Shown here one piece after another: positions 1 to 5,794 of a DNA stretch of 5,794 bases (position 1 is its first letter; each line of letters opens with the position of its first letter). A program made the position numbers and the translations under genes. A model generated the notes under the pieces. The model had not been told where the DNA came from. It was given only the letters and a program-made list of their open reading frames with translations, and did not search any database. The stretch spans positions 1 to 5,794 of the forward strand of contig JAEWEI010000023.1 in assembly GCA_023389545.1 (NCBI GenBank), in the 5' to 3' direction. Source of the DNA: Actinomycetes bacterium (GTDB taxonomy: Bacteria; Actinomycetota; Actinomycetes; Actinomycetales; Cellulomonadaceae).

Positions 1-62
1 TCAGGTCCGGGCACGCTCCGGATCTGGCGCAGCGGTCGTGGATCGATGTCCTCGGAGGCGCC

Positions 63-1028
63 ATGCGCGCGGCAGTGGTGACAGCGTTCGACCGCCCGCC
101 CCGGCGCCTGGACGTGCCGGAGCCGGAGCCGGGCGACCACCAGGAGGTCGTGGACGTCCTGGCGGCGGGCCTGCACCGGCGGGTGCGCTCGCAGGCCGAC
201 GGCTCGCACTACACCTCGACGGGCGTGCTCCCGCTGATCCCCGGGATCGACGGGGTGGGGCGCAGGGCCGACGGGTCGCTGGTGTACTTCCTGCTCCCAC
301 CCGGGGCGACGCAGGGCTCGATGGCCGAGCGGGTGGCGATCGACACCCGGCGGGCGGTGACACTGCCGGACGACGCCGATCCCGTGCGTGTCGCCGCCGC
401 CATGAACCCCGCGATGTCCTCGTGGGTGGCGTTGCGCAGACGGGTCGCGTTCCGGCAGGGGCAGGGGGTGCTGGTCTTCGGCGCCACGGGCAGCGCGGGC
501 CAGCTCGCGATCCAAGTGGCCAAGGACCTCGGCGCGGGGACCGTCACCGCGGTGGGCCGTGGGGCGGCCCGGCTGGAAGGGCTGCGCGATGTGGGCGCCG
601 ACGTCGTCGTCCCGCTCGATGGCGACCCCGCGGAAGCGGCACAGGCCGTCGGGCTCGCCGCTGCCGACGTGGACGTGGTGCTCGACTACCTCTGGGGCCA
701 GCCGACGCAGGACGCCCTGGCGGCGGTCGTCACGCATCGGGCCGATCCCGCCCGGCGGATCGACTGGGTGCAGATCGGCTCGGTGGCGGGGCCGGACATC
801 ACCCTGCCATCGGCGGGGCTGCGCCGGGTCAACCTGCGCGTGCTGGGCAGCGGGCAAGGGTCGGTGTCGCCCGACGAGATGGAGGCGGAGCTCGGCGACC
901 TCGCGCGGTGGATCGACGCGGGGGCGTTCACCGTGGGCCTCCAGGCCGTCGGCTTGTCCGACGTCGAGCGGGCGTGGACGTCGCCGATCCCGTCAGGCAT
1001 GCGCATGGTGGTCATCCCGACGCGGTGA
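63..1028 (+). CDS. Zinc-free medium-chain dehydrogenase/reductase (quinone oxidoreductase-like)
   Basis: This 321-residue protein belongs to the MDR superfamily of cytosolic NAD(P)H-dependent oxidoreductases, on the quinone oxidoreductase/enoyl reductase side. The N-terminal GroES-like half (about 1-125) contains PGIDGVG (60-66), where zinc alcohol dehydrogenases carry the GHE zinc motif, so no catalytic zinc is expected. The Rossmann half begins at VLVFGATGSAGQLAIQVAK (about 136-154), with the GATGSAG nucleotide-binding loop at 140-146. Length is normal for the family. The ATG at 63 is preferred because GGAGG lies at 54-58, four bases upstream, and MRAAVV is a typical MDR N-terminus. The frame is open back to the window edge, so a longer protein is possible but unlikely. 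No partner gene identifies the substrate. It converges on the lipoprotein gene. Family assignment is firm; substrate is unknown. Confidence 0.88.
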   Translation: MRAAVVTAFDRPPRRLDVPEPEPGDHQEVVDVLAAGLHRRVRSQADGSHYTSTGVLPLIPGIDGVGRRADGSLVYFLLPPGATQGSMAERVAIDTRRAVTLPDDADPVRVAAAMNPAMSSWVALRRRVAFRQGQGVLVFGATGSAGQLAIQVAKDLGAGTVTAVGRGAARLEGLRDVGADVVVPLDGDPAEAAQAVGLAAADVDVVLDYLWGQPTQDALAAVVTHRADPARRIDWVQIGSVAGPDITLPSAGLRRVNLRVLGSGQGSVSPDEMEAELGDLARWIDAGAFTVGLQAVGLSDVERAWTSPIPSGMRMVVIPTR

Positions 1029-1045
1029 GAGGCACCCGACGCGTC

Positions 1046-1062
1046 GTGGCCCAGGTGGCCAC
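1046..1062. terminator. Stem-loop between convergent genes, possible bidirectional terminator
   Basis: GTGGCC at 1046-1051 pairs perfectly with GGCCAC at 1057-1062 around a five-base loop. It sits in the 57-base gap between the convergent stop codons at 1028 and 1086, where a terminator serving both strands would be expected. There is no T-tract on either side, so it is not a classical intrinsic terminator. The stem is only 6 bp. Confidence 0.35.
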
Positions 1063-1085
1063 CACAGGCTCGCCGCGGGCGCGGC

Positions 1086-1604
1086 TCAGCCGCCCAGGTC
1101 GCAGAAGACGTCGCCGTCCACGATGCCGAGCATCGACCCCGTCCACAGCTCGTCGAAGGCCACGGCGTCGGCGTGCGTGGTGAACACGACCCCCACGCCG
1201 AACTCGGTGCTCGGGCCGTCGGTCACGCCGAGGGCAGCGTAGGCGTCGTACTGGCAGCTCAGCGGCCACTGCGAGCCGTCGTACCCGACCGCTTCGAGTT
1301 CGGCGCTCGCGGGGTTCAACGCGGCGTCGAGGTCGTCCGTGCCGAGGGTGGCCACGGCGATCCACGCGACGGACAGCGGGTTGTGCTGGCCTTGGATGGC
1401 GGTGGCGAGCTCGAGGGAGTCGGGCCAGTCGGCCTCGGAGTCGGGGGGAGTGCTCGACTTGGGGGGAGTGCTCGTGCTGCCAGCCGAGGGGCTGGCGGTG
1501 GCGGGGCGGGGTTCGGCGTCGTTCGGGCCGCAGCCCGCGATGACGCCCACTGTCAGGAGCGCCCCGCCGAGCAGCATGGCGGTCGCTTTCATGACGACGA
1601 CCAT
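1086..1604 (-). CDS. Small secreted lipoprotein of unknown function
   Basis: This 172-residue protein has a lipoprotein signal peptide: Lys6, a hydrophobic stretch at about 9-24, then the lipobox IAGC with Cys25 as the predicted lipidation site. It should be anchored on the outer face of the membrane. Residues 30-56 are a Pro/Ser/Thr-rich tether containing a repeated STPP unit. The globular part (about 60-172) has Cys117 and Cys168, which could form a disulfide. No known domain was recognised. The ATG at 1604 is taken as the start; the ATG at 1592 (residue 5) gives an equally good signal peptide, and neither has a convincing Shine-Dalgarno. The gene lies 63 bases downstream of the response-regulator stop on the same strand and may be co-transcribed with it, possibly as an accessory protein of the two-component system. 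That role is a guess. Confidence 0.75.
   Translation of the reverse strand: MVVVMKATAMLLGGALLTVGVIAGCGPNDAEPRPATASPSAGSTSTPPKSSTPPDSEADWPDSLELATAIQGQHNPLSVAWIAVATLGTDDLDAALNPASAELEAVGYDGSQWPLSCQYDAYAALGVTDGPSTEFGVGVVFTTHADAVAFDELWTGSMLGIVDGDVFCDLGG
1443..1474 (-). repeat. Imperfect 18-bp tandem repeat in the lipoprotein tether
   Basis: The 14-base unit ggggggagtgctcg occurs at 1443-1456 and again at 1461-1474, a period of 18 bp with differences in the four intervening bases. On the coding (minus) strand it encodes two consecutive six-residue units built on STPP. Because 18 is a multiple of three, gain or loss of a unit would lengthen or shorten the tether without a frameshift. Confidence 0.7.
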
Positions 1605-1667
1605 GCCACGCCGCCGGGGGCGCCGCCTCTGGGGAGCGCGGCCGGTCGGGCCGCTGTGGGCGACGCC

Positions 1668-2339
1668 TCAGGAGGCGGGCCCGATCTCCTCCAGCAGTCG
1701 CAGGGCTGCTGTCACCCGGGGGTTCCGCGCCGGGCCGGCGTCGATGCCCAGCGCCGCGTAGATCGTGTTGATGTGGTTCTGCACGGACTTCTCCGCGATG
1801 CCGAGCTCTTCGCCGATGCCCGCGTTGGACAGCCCGCGCGCGAGCAGCCGGAGCACCCGGTACTGGCGGTCGGTGAGCCGCGCCACTGACGATCCGGCGC
1901 GCGGCTCCAACCGGTCCAGGAGGGCGGGGTCGAGGGTCGTGTGGCCGGCTGCGGTGGCCCGCACCGCGTGCACGAGCTCGTCCGTGCTGGTGGACGAGGT
2001 CTTGCTCAGGTAGCTCCAGCCGCTGGCGACGTCCGGCGGCAGGTCGAGCAGCAGGTCCATCGCGTCGTGGGCGGAGAGCAGCAGGATGCCCAGCCGGGGC
2101 TGCGCGCGGCGCAGCGTGACGCCCAGCGCGATGCCGTTGCCGTCGGGCAGGTCGATGTCGAGCAGCGCCACGTCCACCGCGCCGGGCCGGAACTCCCGGT
2201 TGGCCGCGGCGACCGTGCCGACGGCGGCGACGACCTGCATTCCGGGCACGCCGGCGAGGGTCAGCTCGAGCATCGAGCGGAAGAGCGGCTGGTCTTCGAC
2301 AATCCCGACACGGATCAGCCGGTGGTCGGTCTGAGTCAC
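1668..2339 (-). CDS. NarL/LuxR-family two-component response regulator
   Basis: This 223-residue protein has the standard two-domain layout. The receiver domain (about 9-130) has the acidic pair Glu15-Asp16, the probable phospho-acceptor Asp61 in LLDIDLPDGNG, the switch Ser89 in LLLSAHD, and the conserved Lys113 in YLSK. A linker leads to a LuxR-type helix-turn-helix (about 154-200) that begins LTDRQYRVLRLLARGLSN and includes IAEKSVQNHINTIYAALGI. The GTG at 2339 is chosen because the receiver fold begins right after it. The frame is open much further upstream, but that extension is antisense to the kinase gene and reads as low-complexity Arg/His/Pro protein. No Shine-Dalgarno precedes the GTG, and a possible -10 box sits at leaderless distance. 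It is divergent from the kinase at 2415, its evident partner. Target genes are not visible. Confidence 0.92.
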   Translation of the reverse strand: MTQTDHRLIRVGIVEDQPLFRSMLELTLAGVPGMQVVAAVGTVAAANREFRPGAVDVALLDIDLPDGNGIALGVTLRRAQPRLGILLLSAHDAMDLLLDLPPDVASGWSYLSKTSSTSTDELVHAVRATAAGHTTLDPALLDRLEPRAGSSVARLTDRQYRVLRLLARGLSNAGIGEELGIAEKSVQNHINTIYAALGIDAGPARNPRVTAALRLLEEIGPAS

Positions 2340-2346
2340 GCGGCCC

Positions 2347-2352
2347 AGTATC
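2347..2352 (-). promoter_or_regulatory. Possible -10 box for a leaderless response-regulator mRNA
   Basis: Read on the minus strand the hexamer is GATACT. It ends seven bases before the GTG start at 2339, the usual distance from a -10 box to the transcription start. Transcription would then begin at or next to the start codon, which fits the missing Shine-Dalgarno and the frequency of leaderless mRNAs in actinobacteria. No good -35 box is seen at 16-18 bases upstream, so the call is tentative. The kinase promoter must lie in or near the same 75-base gap. Confidence 0.35.
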
Positions 2353-2414
2353 GTCGGCCGCCAGGTCAGCGAGCCGCACCGCGCCGCCGACACACCCACG
2401 GATGCGAGGCGCCC

Positions 2415-3560
2415 ATGCCGTTCCGCCGCCAGGCAGCTGATCCGACGGATCTGCCAGCGCTCCTGGTGGCGGTCGCGGCGATACTCGTCGTGTTCGGCGT
2501 GGGCGCCGCGGTGCAGACGGCCTACGTGTTCTCCGCTGGCCCGTTCGGCGTCGGGGGCGCCGTGCCGCGCCTGGCGGCCAACCTCGTGGGGGCCGCGGGG
2601 GTGTTGGCCGCCGTCGCAGCGCTGCGAGTGCACGCGCAGCGGTCGCAGTGGACGATGCTCGCCCGGGCGCTGGCCGCAGCCGTGCTCGGCGCCGGGGCGC
2701 GGTCGTTGGCCCAGCGGGCGGTCGGGATCTACGACGCGCACAGCCCGCTCCAGTCCGTGCTGGTCGAGTTCTTCAGCGGCCTGGGCGTGGGGTGTGTGGC
2801 CGGCGCCATGGGCGTGGCCTTCATGATGTCCCGCCGGCGGCTCCGGGTGCAGGCCCAGGCCGCGGCCGAGGGGCGGATCCAGATCGAGCTGGCGCTGGCG
2901 GCGTTGCAGAACGAGGAGGTGCGGGTCCGGCGCGAGGTCGCTGAAGGGCTGCACGGCAGCCTGCAGCAGCGGCTGGTGCTGATCGTCGCGCGGCTCGACA
3001 TCATCCGGGGGCACCTGGCCGCCGGCGCCGCGAGCCCCGCCGACGTCGAGGCGTTGCAGGACATCCGCGAGCAGCTCGAGCAGATCCGCGAGGGGGATGT
3101 GCGCGAGACCAGCCGGATGCTGTACCCGGACGGCCTCGAGGTGGGCATGGTCCCGGCGCTGCGGTCGCTGCTGGGACGCATCCCCGCGAGCATCGGCGCC
3201 AGGCTGCAGGTCTCGCCCGAGGTGCGGCTGCTCGACGATCCGGCGGCCCCTGCGCTCACCCAGACGGAGCGGCTGCTCGTGGTGCGTGTGGTGGAGGAGG
3301 CGCTGACGAACGCGCTGAGGCATGGGAGCGCGGGCACGCTGGAGGTGCGGGTCGAGCTGGACGGCTCGGCCCTGGCGGTGGAGGTCGTGGACGACGGGGT
3401 CGGGTTCGACCCTGCTGACGCCGGCCCGCCGTCGGGGACGGCGCGCTTGCGTGACAGGCTCGCGCTGGTCGGCGGGAGCCTCACTCTGACCTCGGCGCCA
3501 GGCCGGGGCGCCACCTTGCGGGCACGTGTCCCTGTCGCGCGAGTGGGGGCGGTGGCCTGA
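2415..3560 (+). CDS. Membrane sensor histidine kinase, HisKA_3/HATPase type
   Basis: This 381-residue kinase has four hydrophobic segments (about 14-35, 51-72, 82-100, 115-138) with only short connecting loops, so the signal is probably sensed in or at the membrane. A helical, probably coiled-coil linker (about 140-175) leads to the dimerisation and phospho-acceptor helix, where His180 in AEGLHGSLQQRL aligns with the HisKA_3 His. The acidic residue normally following it (LHD/LHE) is Gly181. The HATPase domain has an N box VVEEALTNALRHG (Asn299), a G1 box DDGVGF (326-331), and a reduced G2 region SGTARLRDRLALVGG. The ATG at 2415 has GAGG five bases upstream (2406-2409) and is followed directly by the membrane domain; longer in-frame extensions are antisense to the regulator. 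It should autophosphorylate and pass phosphate to the divergent regulator. The signal is unknown. Confidence 0.9.
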   Translation: MPFRRQAADPTDLPALLVAVAAILVVFGVGAAVQTAYVFSAGPFGVGGAVPRLAANLVGAAGVLAAVAALRVHAQRSQWTMLARALAAAVLGAGARSLAQRAVGIYDAHSPLQSVLVEFFSGLGVGCVAGAMGVAFMMSRRRLRVQAQAAAEGRIQIELALAALQNEEVRVRREVAEGLHGSLQQRLVLIVARLDIIRGHLAAGAASPADVEALQDIREQLEQIREGDVRETSRMLYPDGLEVGMVPALRSLLGRIPASIGARLQVSPEVRLLDDPAAPALTQTERLLVVRVVEEALTNALRHGSAGTLEVRVELDGSALAVEVVDDGVGFDPADAGPPSGTARLRDRLALVGGSLTLTSAPGRGATLRARVPVARVGAVA

Positions 3561-3602
3561 CCGCGGGGGCGCGCGCCACGGGCAGATCACTGTGCGGATC
3601 GT

Positions 3603-3749
3603 GTGGTTCGCCCGCTTCGCCCGGGTGAAAGATCCGGACTATTCGCCAACCTCAGGTGCAAGCACCTAGGCGTGCTCGTGCGAGGCCATCTCGACGCGCT
3701 TAGCGTCGCGTTCTGCCAGCTCGAACAGCACATCTCCCAGGAGTTTCCC
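3603..3749 (+). promoter_or_regulatory. Structured leader with alternative hairpins upstream of the secreted subunit
   Basis: The gap between the kinase stop and the subunit ATG holds several small stems. CCGGGT (3621-3626) pairs with ATCCGG (3632-3637, one G-U) around a GAAAG loop. AGGTG (3654-3658) pairs with CACCT (3663-3667), and CGCC (3644-3647) can close around it with GGCG (3669-3672). AGCAC (3661-3665) can instead pair with GTGCT (3672-3676), which excludes the previous stem. CGAG/CTCG (3681-3684, 3690-3693) overlaps CGACGC/GCGTCG (3692-3697, 3703-3708). AGGAG at 3739-3743 is the Shine-Dalgarno, six bases before the ATG. Mutually exclusive stems suggest a regulatory 5' UTR, but random GC-rich DNA also forms such stems. 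It matches no riboswitch class I can name, and no clear promoter was identified. Confidence 0.35.
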
Positions 3750-4169
3750 ATGGCCCGCTTCACCTTCCCCCGCCGCAAGACCGCCGCCGTCTCGATGGCT
3801 GTGCTCGGTGTCGCCGGACTCGCGCTGGCCTCTGCGGCCACGCTCAACCTCCAGGGCGGGACGCTCGCCGCCAACACCGTGGTCGTGGCCTCGTGCCAGC
3901 CCACTGGCACCCCCATCACCGTCGGCTTCGACAACGCGTTCGCTGCGAACGCCACGAACCCCGGCTACAACGTGTCCGGCGTGAAGCTCAAGGACGTCGA
4001 CGCGGCTTGTGCGGGCAAGGCCGTCAAGGCCGACCTGATCGACGCGTCTGGCGCGTCGCTCGGGCAGGTGACCGGCGCCGCGTCCGCCGGCACGACGAGC
4101 CTTGGCGCCCCGTCGGCGTCCGTCGCCGCGAGCGCCGTCGCGAAGGTCTCGGTCGTCATCTCCGACTGA
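3750..4169 (+). CDS. Small secreted subunit, probable substrate of the adjacent SipW-type peptidase
   Basis: This 139-residue preprotein has a basic N-region (PRRK, 7-10), a hydrophobic core (about 12-26) and a likely signal peptidase site ASA|ATL after residue 29. The mature protein of about 110 residues is rich in Ala, Val, Ser, Thr and Gly, has no Trp, and has two Cys (49 and 87) that could form a disulfide. There is no LPXTG motif and no lipobox. Residues about 76-137, including CAGK (87-90), align with residues about 61-124 of the protein encoded at 4821-5618, so the two are paralogues. The ATG at 3750 has AGGAG at 3739-3743; the longer in-frame opening has neither an RBS nor protein-like sequence. 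Its place first in the cluster, strong RBS and hairpin after the gene suggest an abundant structural subunit of a surface fibre or matrix. Function is inferred from context only. Confidence 0.82.
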   Translation: MARFTFPRRKTAAVSMAVLGVAGLALASAATLNLQGGTLAANTVVVASCQPTGTPITVGFDNAFAANATNPGYNVSGVKLKDVDAACAGKAVKADLIDASGASLGQVTGAASAGTTSLGAPSASVAASAVAKVSVVISD

Positions 4170-4175
4170 TCGTCC

Positions 4176-4205
4176 CTGGATGCGGCGGCGCCACGCCGCA
4201 TCCAG
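4176..4205 (+). terminator. Perfect 12-bp stem-loop between subunit and peptidase genes
   Basis: CTGGATGCGGCG (4176-4187) is exactly complementary to CGCCGCATCCAG (4194-4205) across a six-base loop. It starts seven bases after the subunit stop codon. No T-tract follows, so it may act as a partial terminator, as a barrier protecting the subunit mRNA from 3' decay, or both. Either effect would give much more subunit than peptidase. An intrinsic terminator of the GC-rich actinobacterial kind lacking a U-tail is the simplest reading. Confidence 0.7.
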
Positions 4206-4215
4206 CCTTCATCGC

Positions 4216-4824
4216 GTGACCGTTCTGGAGAGAGCCATCACCATCGCCCAGGCGCCATCCGCGCCCACAGCAGCCGACGTGCCCCGTGCGCGTCGGCTGC
4301 TGGGCGTCGCGGCCGACCTCGGCCTGGCCCTGTTCCTCGCCGTCGCCGTGTGGGCGCTGTGGCCCTCCTCGCTCGGGGGTTGCACCACGCTGACGATCGT
4401 CTCGGGGCACTCGATGGACCCCACCTACGCGACGGGCGACCTGGTGGTCGCGCGTTGTGGCGAGCCCGCGGTGGGCGATGTGGTGGTGTACCAGCCGGCG
4501 ACGGAGAACGGCGGCAGGGTCATCCACCGCATCATCGGCGGCGACGGCGAGACCGGCTGGCGGATGCAGGGTGACAACAACGACTTCACCGACCCGTGGA
4601 TGCCCACCGCGGACGAGGTTCTGGGGGTGGCGCGGCTGCACCTGCCGGGGGTCGGCGTCGTCGCGTCGATCCTCCTGATGCCCCTCACCTGGGTGTCGCT
4701 GCTGGTGGTGGCCGCCGGGATCCTGCTCTGGCCGAGCCGCGCCGCGGACGACAAGGATGCCGACGCCGACGCGCTCGAGCCCGCCCACTCCGCCACCGCT
4801 GATCTGGAGGAGGACGCCCGATGA
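4216..4824 (+). CDS. Signal peptidase I, SipW/archaeal/ER type (Ser-His)
   Basis: This protein of about 202 residues is a membrane-bound S26 peptidase that removes signal peptides from exported proteins. A first membrane helix lies at about 33-50. The nucleophile is Ser66 in SGHSMDPT. The box that carries Lys in ordinary bacterial enzymes reads RVIHRI, so His104 is the likely general base, as in archaeal, ER and Bacillus SipW enzymes. GDNND (119-123) supplies the conserved C-terminal box. A second helix (about 146-172) is followed by an acidic, probably cytoplasmic tail of about 30 residues. The start is uncertain: the GTG at 4216 has no Shine-Dalgarno, while GGAGAG at 4227-4232 precedes an in-frame ATC at 4237. 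Its stop overlaps the next start in ATGA, which implies translational coupling. The two flanking secreted proteins are the obvious substrates. Family assignment is firm. Confidence 0.9.
   Translation: MTVLERAITIAQAPSAPTAADVPRARRLLGVAADLGLALFLAVAVWALWPSSLGGCTTLTIVSGHSMDPTYATGDLVVARCGEPAVGDVVVYQPATENGGRVIHRIIGGDGETGWRMQGDNNDFTDPWMPTADEVLGVARLHLPGVGVVASILLMPLTWVSLLVVAAGILLWPSRAADDKDADADALEPAHSATADLEEDAR
4227..4232 (+). promoter_or_regulatory. Shine-Dalgarno-like GGAGAG facing a non-standard ATC start
   Basis: This purine box lies inside the reading frame opened by the GTG at 4216. Four bases after it is an in-frame ATC (4237), which would give a protein beginning (M)TIAQAPSAP ahead of the first membrane helix. 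No ATG, GTG or TTG lies at a fitting distance downstream. It may mark a rare AUC start with low initiation, a mutated ATG, or a chance match within the coding sequence. Confidence 0.35.
4806..4813 (+). promoter_or_regulatory. Strong ribosome binding site within the peptidase 3' end
   Basis: GGAGGAGG lies seven bases before the ATG at 4821 and inside the last codons of the peptidase gene. It fixes the start of the downstream secreted protein. Combined with the ATGA overlap, it shows that the last gene can be translated efficiently in its own right as well as by coupling to the peptidase. Confidence 0.8.
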
Positions 4825-5618
4825 GCCGGCGCCGCCTCCTGTACGCCGTCGCCGTGATCGGCGCCCTGCTCATCGCGGGGCTGTCCACCGCGAGCGCCGC
4901 GACCCTGCCGCTCAGCAGCGTCCGGATCACCACCCTCACCGTCGCCGAGCGTTGCGCTCCCGCGCTGACCGTGGAGCCGGGCCCGGCGACCGGCGGCACT
5001 GCCACCAGCGTCGCCATCCGGCAGGTCCCCGCCCACTGCGCAGGCAAGCAGGTCCGGCTGCGGCTGCTCGGCGCGTCCGGTCCGCTCGCCACCGCCGACG
5101 CAGTCGCCACGCTGCCCGCCGCCGGGGCCACCGCCACGATCCCCGTCGCCGCCTACACGCCGTCCGCCGTGCGCGGCGTGGCGCTCACCGTCGACGGCTG
5201 GGGCCTCGCCCCCACCTGGTCGGCGCCAATGCCGGGCATCGCGTGCACCGTGCCCGGCAACCCCTCGGCCAGCTGCGATGTGAAGGTCGTGGCGTCGCAT
5301 GAGTGGGGCTCAGGCGAGTCCCGGACGTACCTGCGCCGGTTCGAGGTCAGCACCACCTCGACGACCCCCATCACCTGGCGGCTCACCCTCAACCTGTCGG
5401 ACGCCACGCTGTTCCCGTTCGTCGCGGCAGGGCTCTCCGACCAGCAGGGCGGCCTGGTGAAGGTCAGCGCTAGCGCCTGTTCCGACCCCGCCCGGCTCGT
5501 CACCGTCAAGGGCACCACGAACTGGGGCTCGTACCACACAGTCGTCGCCGGGGAGCCCCGCACGCTCGAGGTCCAGGGCTTCGGGTCGGCGGGCGGCAAC
5601 CTGCTGGCCTGCTCCTGA
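4821..5618 (+). CDS. Secreted two-domain protein: subunit-like module plus CBM2-like C-terminal domain
   Basis: This 265-residue preprotein has a signal peptide (RRR at 3-5, hydrophobic 7-21, probable cut ASA|ATL after 26). The N-terminal module (about 27-125) is paralogous to the protein encoded at 3750-4169: it shares the cleavage junction, the two Cys (45 and 73), CAGK at 73-76 and the following alternating pattern. The C-terminal region (about 145-265) is bracketed by Cys152 and Cys264, with Trp162 in EWGSGES, Trp186 in ITWRLTL and Trp235 in NWGSY followed by VVAGEPRTLEVQGF. Order and spacing resemble family 2 carbohydrate-binding modules (W..GF, GW.L.F, W.G..PAG....F.F), although the Trp corresponding to position 54 of the classical Cex module is not evident. 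There is no LPXTG motif or C-terminal membrane anchor. It may be a minor tip, anchor or glycan-binding component of the same assembly. The gene is real; the domain call is moderate. Confidence 0.83.
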   Translation: MSRRRLLYAVAVIGALLIAGLSTASAATLPLSSVRITTLTVAERCAPALTVEPGPATGGTATSVAIRQVPAHCAGKQVRLRLLGASGPLATADAVATLPAAGATATIPVAAYTPSAVRGVALTVDGWGLAPTWSAPMPGIACTVPGNPSASCDVKVVASHEWGSGESRTYLRRFEVSTTSTTPITWRLTLNLSDATLFPFVAAGLSDQQGGLVKVSASACSDPARLVTVKGTTNWGSYHTVVAGEPRTLEVQGFGSAGGNLLACS

Positions 5619-5633
5619 CACTCGGGGAGCCGG

Positions 5634-5687
5634 GGAGTCGCGCAGCCGGGTGAACGGGCGCCCGACTCCTCACCTGCGACGCGCAGG
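5634..5687 (+). terminator. Inverted repeats downstream of the secretion cluster
   Basis: Two stems lie in the 128-base gap after the stop at 5618. GGAGTCG (5634-5640) pairs with CGACTCC (5663-5669) across a wide 22-base interval, and CCTGCG (5673-5678) pairs with CGCAGG (5682-5687) around a three-base loop. Neither has a T-tract. One or both could terminate the cluster transcript before the gene starting at 5747, but the evidence is only base pairing in GC-rich DNA. Confidence 0.3.
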
Positions 5688-5746
5688 CGCCGATGGTGAC
5701 GACAGGTCGAAGGATCGGCCGTGGCGTGCGCAGGAGGCGAATGCCC

Positions 5747-5794
5747 ATGAGCTCAGGTCAGAAGCGTGCCCGCCGGATCACCGCGGGCTGGCTG
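5747..5794 (+). CDS. Start of a further gene, truncated by the window end
   Basis: AGGAGG at 5732-5737 precedes two in-frame ATG codons at 5741 and 5747. The second is preferred because its nine-base spacing is better than three. The 16 visible codons read MSSGQKRARRITAGWL and remain open to the window edge. A basic cluster (KRARR) running into a more hydrophobic stretch could be the start of a signal peptide or membrane helix, which would fit another exported or membrane component, but this cannot be decided from 16 residues. It follows the secretion cluster in the same direction. Confidence 0.6.
   Translation, partial: MSSGQKRARRITAGWL

Follow-up and report, generated by a model that had tools for sequence, protein, structure and literature searches.

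According to the available portions of the respective papers, residues 28-38 of Bacillus subtilis TasA, encoded in tapA-sipW-tasA and located right behind the signal, form the donor strand by which the following subunit is completed (PMC9674648), an N-terminal stretch is common to TapA and TasA (PMC10151520), and in the sipW-tasA/calY/capP locus of B. cereus, a filament locus that does not depend on sortase, SipW processes several secreted paralogues (PMC13082335). Here we compare with these systems a locus from an actinobacterium of the family Cellulomonadaceae (assembly GCA_023389545.1, contig JAEWEI010000023.1, positions 1 to 5,794; this whole stretch of 5,794 nucleotides is hereinafter the window), the source of which, judging by sequence, is close to Cellulomonas timonensis. 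The locus encodes a small exported protein (A), a Ser/His signal peptidase of the S26 family and a larger exported protein (C), and the evidence presented below provides good support for these three genes forming a conserved module for protein export that includes a dedicated Ser/His peptidase.

As stated in the original prediction for this DNA, the three open reading frames all lie on the forward strand, and the stop codon of the peptidase gene overlaps the start codon of C (ATGA, 4821-4824). The limits given there for the locus (3750-5618) proved too narrow, given that the conserved unit also includes a two-component system upstream (1668-3560) and a fourth gene, D, of the A type, downstream. 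A single scan of GTDB contigs yielded 55 loci with relatives of the peptidase, most of which bear the label Cellulomonas or Actinotalea and a few Cellulosimicrobium, Pengzhenrongella, Microbacteriaceae and Propionicimonas; the synteny of A in this set is conditional on the presence of the peptidase. An A-type gene is located directly 5' of the peptidase gene in the window and in all 55 loci, which is not due to chance and bears out the claim that the peptidase is tied to the two exported proteins as a unit. When the same feature was scored by script, the A-type gene was found within 250 nucleotides in 55 of 56 places (the 55 loci plus the window), the exception being L037, where the script chose the wrong peptidase start and the A frame ends at 5944, ahead of the peptidase. 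On the 3' side, the script detected an A- or C-type gene starting within 300 nucleotides of the peptidase gene in 47 of the 56 places; it missed C frames that are present in L012, L023, L038 and L053, and L030 and L037 end at contig ends. In 39 of the 55 loci, the peptidase gene terminates in RTGA, with which the start codon of the following gene can overlap. Three loci (L011, L025 and L029) possess a second peptidase with A-type neighbors of its own nearby, and in three genomes (G085, G101 and G140) a clustered A-type/peptidase set, or else a set of A-type genes, occurs twice.

The reverse test covered 150 genomes of the family, in which only part of the first-look candidates were scored, and produced 85 A-type matches in 38 genomes. 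Eighty of these matches are on the same strand as, and at most 3,178 nucleotides from, one of the 38 best peptidase matches (E <= 9.6e-38, a cut that we placed at a gap in the match list), so homologues of A are not regularly free of the peptidase; conversely, 34 of the 38 best peptidases have an A-type match within 300 nucleotides upstream. The check proposed in the original prediction, namely a search for homologues of the secreted proteins occurring without the peptidase, was thus run in part and returned such homologues for five of the 85 matches, in four of the 150 genomes, which is not a regular occurrence. Two of the five (A and D) belong to G031, where C lies between them and no peptidase was found, one is at a contig end (G126), and the remaining two are D genes standing alone (G007 and G035). 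The G031 locus (L076, 2-2869) retains A, C and D in this order, with a long inverted repeat behind A and a GDSL-hydrolase match of only 46 residues; it looks eroded, or else reflects an assembly fault. In G007 (L078, 1284-5310), the block of regulator, kinase, A, peptidase and C genes is absent between a lipoprotein gene and D, with the oxidoreductase, lipoprotein, D and hydrolase genes all in place and D 63% identical to the D protein of L001, as if the entire block had been gained or lost as one piece.

Four of the 38 best peptidases (G137, G102, G019 and G043) have no A-type match within 300 nucleotides upstream; ahead of each lies a protein whose signal and extension are of the same kind and whose mature part is different. 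Among such partners, those in L080, L082 and L083, where the peptidase is more distant, are matched by the A profile over the signal and extension (E 1.1e-5, 1.1e-6 and 1.3e-7, respectively), and for a fourth, L081 (G043), the likeness was noted by eye only. Given that these upstream proteins share the signal and extension yet differ in the mature part, it is the N-terminus, more than the mature protein, that follows the peptidase. The loci L080-L083, where the gene ahead of a more distant Ser/His peptidase encodes an exported protein of the same signal type with a different mature part, appear to be further systems of this kind; one of them was tested, and no NCBIfam model matched.

The peptidase itself scores 55.0 bits against TIGR02228, the archaeal/ER (endoplasmic reticulum) type, above the curated cut-off of 51.85 that is also passed by members from L001, L052 and L080, and 29.2 bits against PF10502 (cut-off 22.9); the solved structures that match it best are SEC11C and SEC11A. 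Because all 22 aligned homologues have Ser66-Met67 and His104-Arg105, the enzyme is of the Ser/His rather than the Ser/Lys type, as predicted; Asp120 and Asp126, as well as Cys56 and Cys81, are invariant in the same alignment. The further assignment to the SipW type did not survive: the score against NF046067 is 30.5 bits compared to the NCBIfam curated cut-off of 190, and the protein is instead a relative of the TIGR02228 type. A separate signal peptidase I (TIGR02227 above cut-off) was detected in all five genomes searched, and a catalytic-type 'KR' stretch was spotted by eye in that of L084. Given that a housekeeping signal peptidase I is already there, the presence of a second, different peptidase needs a reason, and A and C are probably cut by this enzyme behind the N-terminal signal that they have in common.

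In profile comparison, the domain of A matches the N-terminal domain of C at 97.0% (E 1e-10, 65 columns), and both score only 0.2-0.5% against the last domain of C; the proposed paralogy of the two exported proteins holds at the profile level. A and C belong to no Pfam or NCBIfam family, eight relatives of C, the window itself included, were found at E <= 1e-3, and no TasA-type family appeared at E <= 0.1 for 43 A-type members searched against NCBIfam or 23 C members searched against Pfam, so that TasA-type substrates were rejected at the level of family models, in line with the dissimilarity to TasA and TapA noted originally. Comparison of the profiles with the sequences of solved structures gave nothing for A up to E 5 and one unrelated row for C (E 1.4), Foldseek returned nothing for either protein at E <= 0.001, and the structural search with A recovered general immunoglobulin-like (Ig-like) neighbors only. 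Neither A (ending in VVISD) nor C (ending in LLACS) has the C-terminal LPXTG-type sorting signal of sortase-assembled pili.

The predicted structure of A consists of six strands in residues 57-138, with a mean predicted local distance difference test (pLDDT) value of 83-93 per block from residue 51 onward and values below 50 for residues 26-46, directly behind the signal. Conservation has a different profile, being highest in residues 26-49 (2.75 bits), followed by the signal (residues 1-25, 2.49 bits) and residues 50-139 (2.15 bits). This combination of conservation with lack of predicted structure behind the signal is also that of the TasA donor strand and was therefore counted in favor of a donor-strand fiber, in which A might polymerize in the manner of TasA, although the parallel falls short of proof.

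The extra domain of C noted in the original prediction is real and common to its relatives. Cys152, Cys264 and Trp186 are conserved in 23 of 23 sequences, Trp162 in 20 and Trp235 in 17, and in the profile comparison the residues of C line up with the Cys and Trp residues of CBM2, except for the closing Cys, which falls outside the aligned columns. The resemblance of this domain to CBM2 had been written down as an expectation ahead of the structure search, in which the best rows labelled VIA for the domain are CBM2 modules; the Pfam model itself (PF00553) gave no match at E <= 1 for the window C or at E <= 0.1 for the 23 members. The underlying alignment (A7) was built from 16 of the 55 loci, picked as domain carriers, and six of the eight C relatives, leaving out P0128, which has another C-terminus, and the window's own P0121; for the 20 fetched CBM2 stretches, the strand was chosen by a simple motif and the absence of stops. 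The host organisms carry 23 and 31 CBM2 domains. The earlier description of C as a minor adhesive relative of A gains real support from the CBM2-like domain, which fits such a role and is predicted to bind plant polysaccharide; the assembly to which C was assigned stays at the level of a proposal.

The gap between A and the peptidase gene contains a hairpin with a folding energy of -27 kcal/mol (z -3.67). Stems of at least 9 base pairs are present in this gap in 28 of 55 cases, with differing sequences, compared to 1.10 expected from dinucleotide shuffles, in one of 54 regions behind the peptidase stop and in none of 55 regions within the peptidase gene; the count omits L037 (the script start error), the loci are related, so that the 28 cannot be taken as independent, and most of the second control is coding sequence. 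Scans of 3500-5794 for promoters and terminators found none and, given this negative result and the lack of a U-run, we do not call the hairpin a terminator. It may be a device for producing A in excess, as befits a major subunit, and would then either hold back transcription or protect the portion of the message that encodes A.

Taken together, these observations suggest a mechanism in which the Ser/His peptidase would remove the N-terminal signal that A and C share, A would polymerize through the freed N-terminal strand into a surface fiber, the hairpin would keep A in excess over the peptidase and C, and C would join the fiber as a minor member, holding plant polysaccharide via its CBM2-like domain. 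Expression would be controlled by the two-component system in Cellulomonas or, in the case of D, by a riboswitch in Actinotalea-type loci. We tentatively favor, with not quite an even chance of being right, an export module of Cellulomonas and relatives in which the peptidase cleaves A and C, A polymerizes and C binds polysaccharide. The more specific picture of a cellulose-adhesion organelle, with a donor-strand fiber of Ig-like A subunits, its own peptidase, the CBM2-like paralogue at the tip or sides, a two-component switch and riboswitch tuning in the sister clade, is speculative and, in this full form, rather unlikely.

Three other explanations have to be considered. The peptidase might be dedicated to A and C, with both being soluble or wall-associated, non-polymerizing proteins that act as Ig-like helpers of polysaccharide-binding proteins. 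Neither the paralogy nor the CBM2-like domain requires a fiber, and the up to four or five A-type genes in some loci (L011, L026 and L041) resemble a set of secreted binding proteins; however, a soluble protein would have no need for its most conserved part to be the stretch behind the cleavage site, at a free N-terminus, and the hairpin suggests a large excess of A over C, so that this explanation is possible but doubtful. Alternatively, the ordinary signal peptidase I, present in five of five genomes, could process A and C, with the Ser/His peptidase employed otherwise, for instance, in a regulatory capacity like B. subtilis SipW, which is called bifunctional in the title of a reference cited in the available part of PMC13082335. 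The persistence of A and C in G031, where no such peptidase was found, and of D alone in G007 is compatible with this possibility. Nevertheless, the peptidase and the A-type N-terminus travel together even when the mature protein is different, the G031 locus looks eroded, as judged by its 46-residue GDSL match, and the scoring in that genome covered only 21 of 28 candidates; we consider this explanation improbable. Least probable of all is a scenario in which the long and well conserved N-terminal segments remain uncleaved, anchoring A and C in the membrane, and the peptidase acts on other or damaged proteins, given the small-residue c-region (LASAA) ahead of the extension, which is a feature of cleaved signals, and the location of the peptidase gene between A and C.

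The polymerizing export module that we favor is embedded in a conserved neighborhood (Table 1). A divergent NarL-type regulator and a kinase are located 5' of A in 38 of the 49 loci that hold at least 2.5 kb of upstream sequence and may control the module in Cellulomonas; the window kinase scores 18.2 against HisKA_3, under the cut-off of 24. Identity to L001 is 92% for A, 90% for the kinase, 96% for the response regulator and 86% for C. D starts at 5741 or 5747 and is truncated by the end of the window; its 18 codons there are identical in context to the N-terminus of the 138-residue D in L001 and L002. A pattern of the GGGTGAAAGATCCG type, written from the window, occurs both 5' of A and 5' of D in the window and in L001 and L002, and at no such place in the other 53 loci; the GGGTGAAAGATCCG/GGTCGAAGGATCGG motif is thus confined to the window and its two nearest relatives.

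The alternative arrangement involves D. An Rfam scan detected a riboswitch of the cyclic di-GMP-I class 5' of D in four of eight sources (three RF03167, the GGC variant, and one RF01051), and our model R1, for which four of its ten matches had served as input, places a riboswitch at this position in 10 of the 56 places; RF03167 was found 207-300 nucleotides 5' of D in at least 12 of the 38 genomes with A-type genes. The scan for known RNAs in the window produced no riboswitch and only a chance-level match to sR28. All ten riboswitch loci are without a two-component system in the available sequence, which extends only a little over 2 kb upstream in L008 and L016. Among the 42 loci with both flanks, 32 have the two-component system only, eight the riboswitch only, none both and two neither, a split that follows clades and may hence represent a single event. 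The riboswitch would control D in the Actinotalea-type loci. Several loci contain a small reading frame directly behind it that is too variable to interpret.

Among the flanking genes, a GDSL-type hydrolase (PF13472, 98.8 bits) is encoded on the opposite strand after the module in 43 of 47 loci. The small lipoprotein-like gene of the window, which belongs to no Pfam family, is kept in L001, L002 and G007, flanked by the oxidoreductase gene on one side and by the regulator gene or D on the other; the oxidoreductase is an ordinary quinone oxidoreductase of the zinc-binding-dehydrogenase type (PF00107, 37.9 bits). A plasmid origin was discarded, there being no megablast match.

Table 1. Features of the window and, in the last ten lines, riboswitches of other loci (positions in the respective locus)
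Feature	Positions	Strand	Remarks
Quinone oxidoreductase	63-1028	+
Lipoprotein-like gene	1086-1604	-
NarL/LuxR-type response regulator	1668-2336	-	divergent from kinase; Pfam Response_reg 53.1 bits (cut-off 30.2), GerE 44.2 (23.5)
Sensor histidine kinase	2415-3560	+	directly 5' of A; Pfam HATPase_c 46.1 bits (cut-off 26.4)
GGGTGAAAGATCCG	3623-3636	+	about 115 nucleotides 5' of A; possible shared operator
Gene A	3750-4169	+	139 residues; small exported protein; proposed major subunit
A residues 26-49	3825-3896	+	cleavage region plus N-terminal extension, ending at Cys49; donor strand candidate
Hairpin, gap between A and peptidase gene	4176-4205	+	perfect stem, 12 base pairs
Ser/His signal peptidase (S26) gene	4216-4824	+	202 residues; GTG start (most likely)
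Gene C	4821-5618	+	265 residues; larger paralogue of A; proposed minor, adhesive subunit
C residues 42-137, A-like domain	4944-5231	+	profile match to A domain, 97.0%, E 1e-10
C residues 152-264, CBM2-like domain	5274-5612	+	two invariant Cys as bounds
GGTCGAAGGATCGG	5705-5718	+	5' of D; resembles the 3623-3636 sequence
Gene D start, third A-type exported protein	5741-5794	+	truncated by window end
Riboswitch 5' of D, L007	8396-8505
Riboswitch 5' of D, L008	5267-5374
Riboswitch 5' of D, L014	8918-9026
Riboswitch 5' of D, L015	8385-8495
Riboswitch 5' of D, L016	5752-5859
Riboswitch 5' of D, L018	8419-8527
Riboswitch 5' of D, L026	9316-9424
Riboswitch 5' of D, L032	8378-8486
Riboswitch 5' of D, L035	8419-8526
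Riboswitch 5' of D, L041	9250-9357

Cellulomonas species are model cellulose degraders. In one case, the attachment of Cellulomonas cells to cellulose has been credited, in the available part of the report, to a curdlan exopolysaccharide (PMC3035266). No paper on the A-peptidase-C system was found in the open-access literature searched, which is weak evidence of absence. If the proposed mechanism is correct, a conserved fiber with a cellulose-binding member would be a protein answer to the question of how these cells hold cellulose, the TasA principle of a special signal peptidase combined with a donor-strand fiber would be carried into actinobacteria, and proteins covered by no Pfam or NCBIfam model would become testable parts. 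The hairpin, the one-piece absence of the block in G007 and the choice between the two-component system and the riboswitch are each directly open to experiment.

The components of the module resemble known ones to different degrees. The last domain of C shares with the CBM2 modules (PF00553), which bind cellulose, xylan and chitin, its length, the bounding Cys pair, a buried Trp and two aromatic positions, over 85 columns, but is too distant for the Pfam model and is joined to an A-type domain rather than to a glycoside hydrolase. The peptidase passes the threshold of the archaeal/ER-type family and has its best solved relatives there, but it exists beside a normal bacterial signal peptidase I and adjoins its presumed substrates. 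With sipW-tasA/calY/capP of B. cereus, as presented in the available part of its description, the locus shares several secreted paralogues accompanied by a special peptidase; it differs in having no sequence-family match and no recognized CapP-like gene, and a carbohydrate-binding partner is not among the features reported in that part for the B. cereus locus. The closest parallel is to tapA-sipW-tasA of B. subtilis. Here the window peptidase scores below the cut-off of the SipW model, no TasA, TapA or camelysin model recognizes A or C, C has the additional CBM2-like domain, the host is a high-GC actinobacterium, and a two-component system or a nearby riboswitch takes the place of SinR. The likeness consists in the gene for a special Ser/His-type peptidase located between those for two exported proteins that share an N-terminal stretch, one protein expected to be abundant and the other minor, and in subunits predicted to be beta sandwiches with a mobile N-terminal strand, as described for TasA in the available parts of PMC9674648 and PMC10151520. 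Without being a sequence member of TapA-SipW-TasA, the A-peptidase-C module would work like it.
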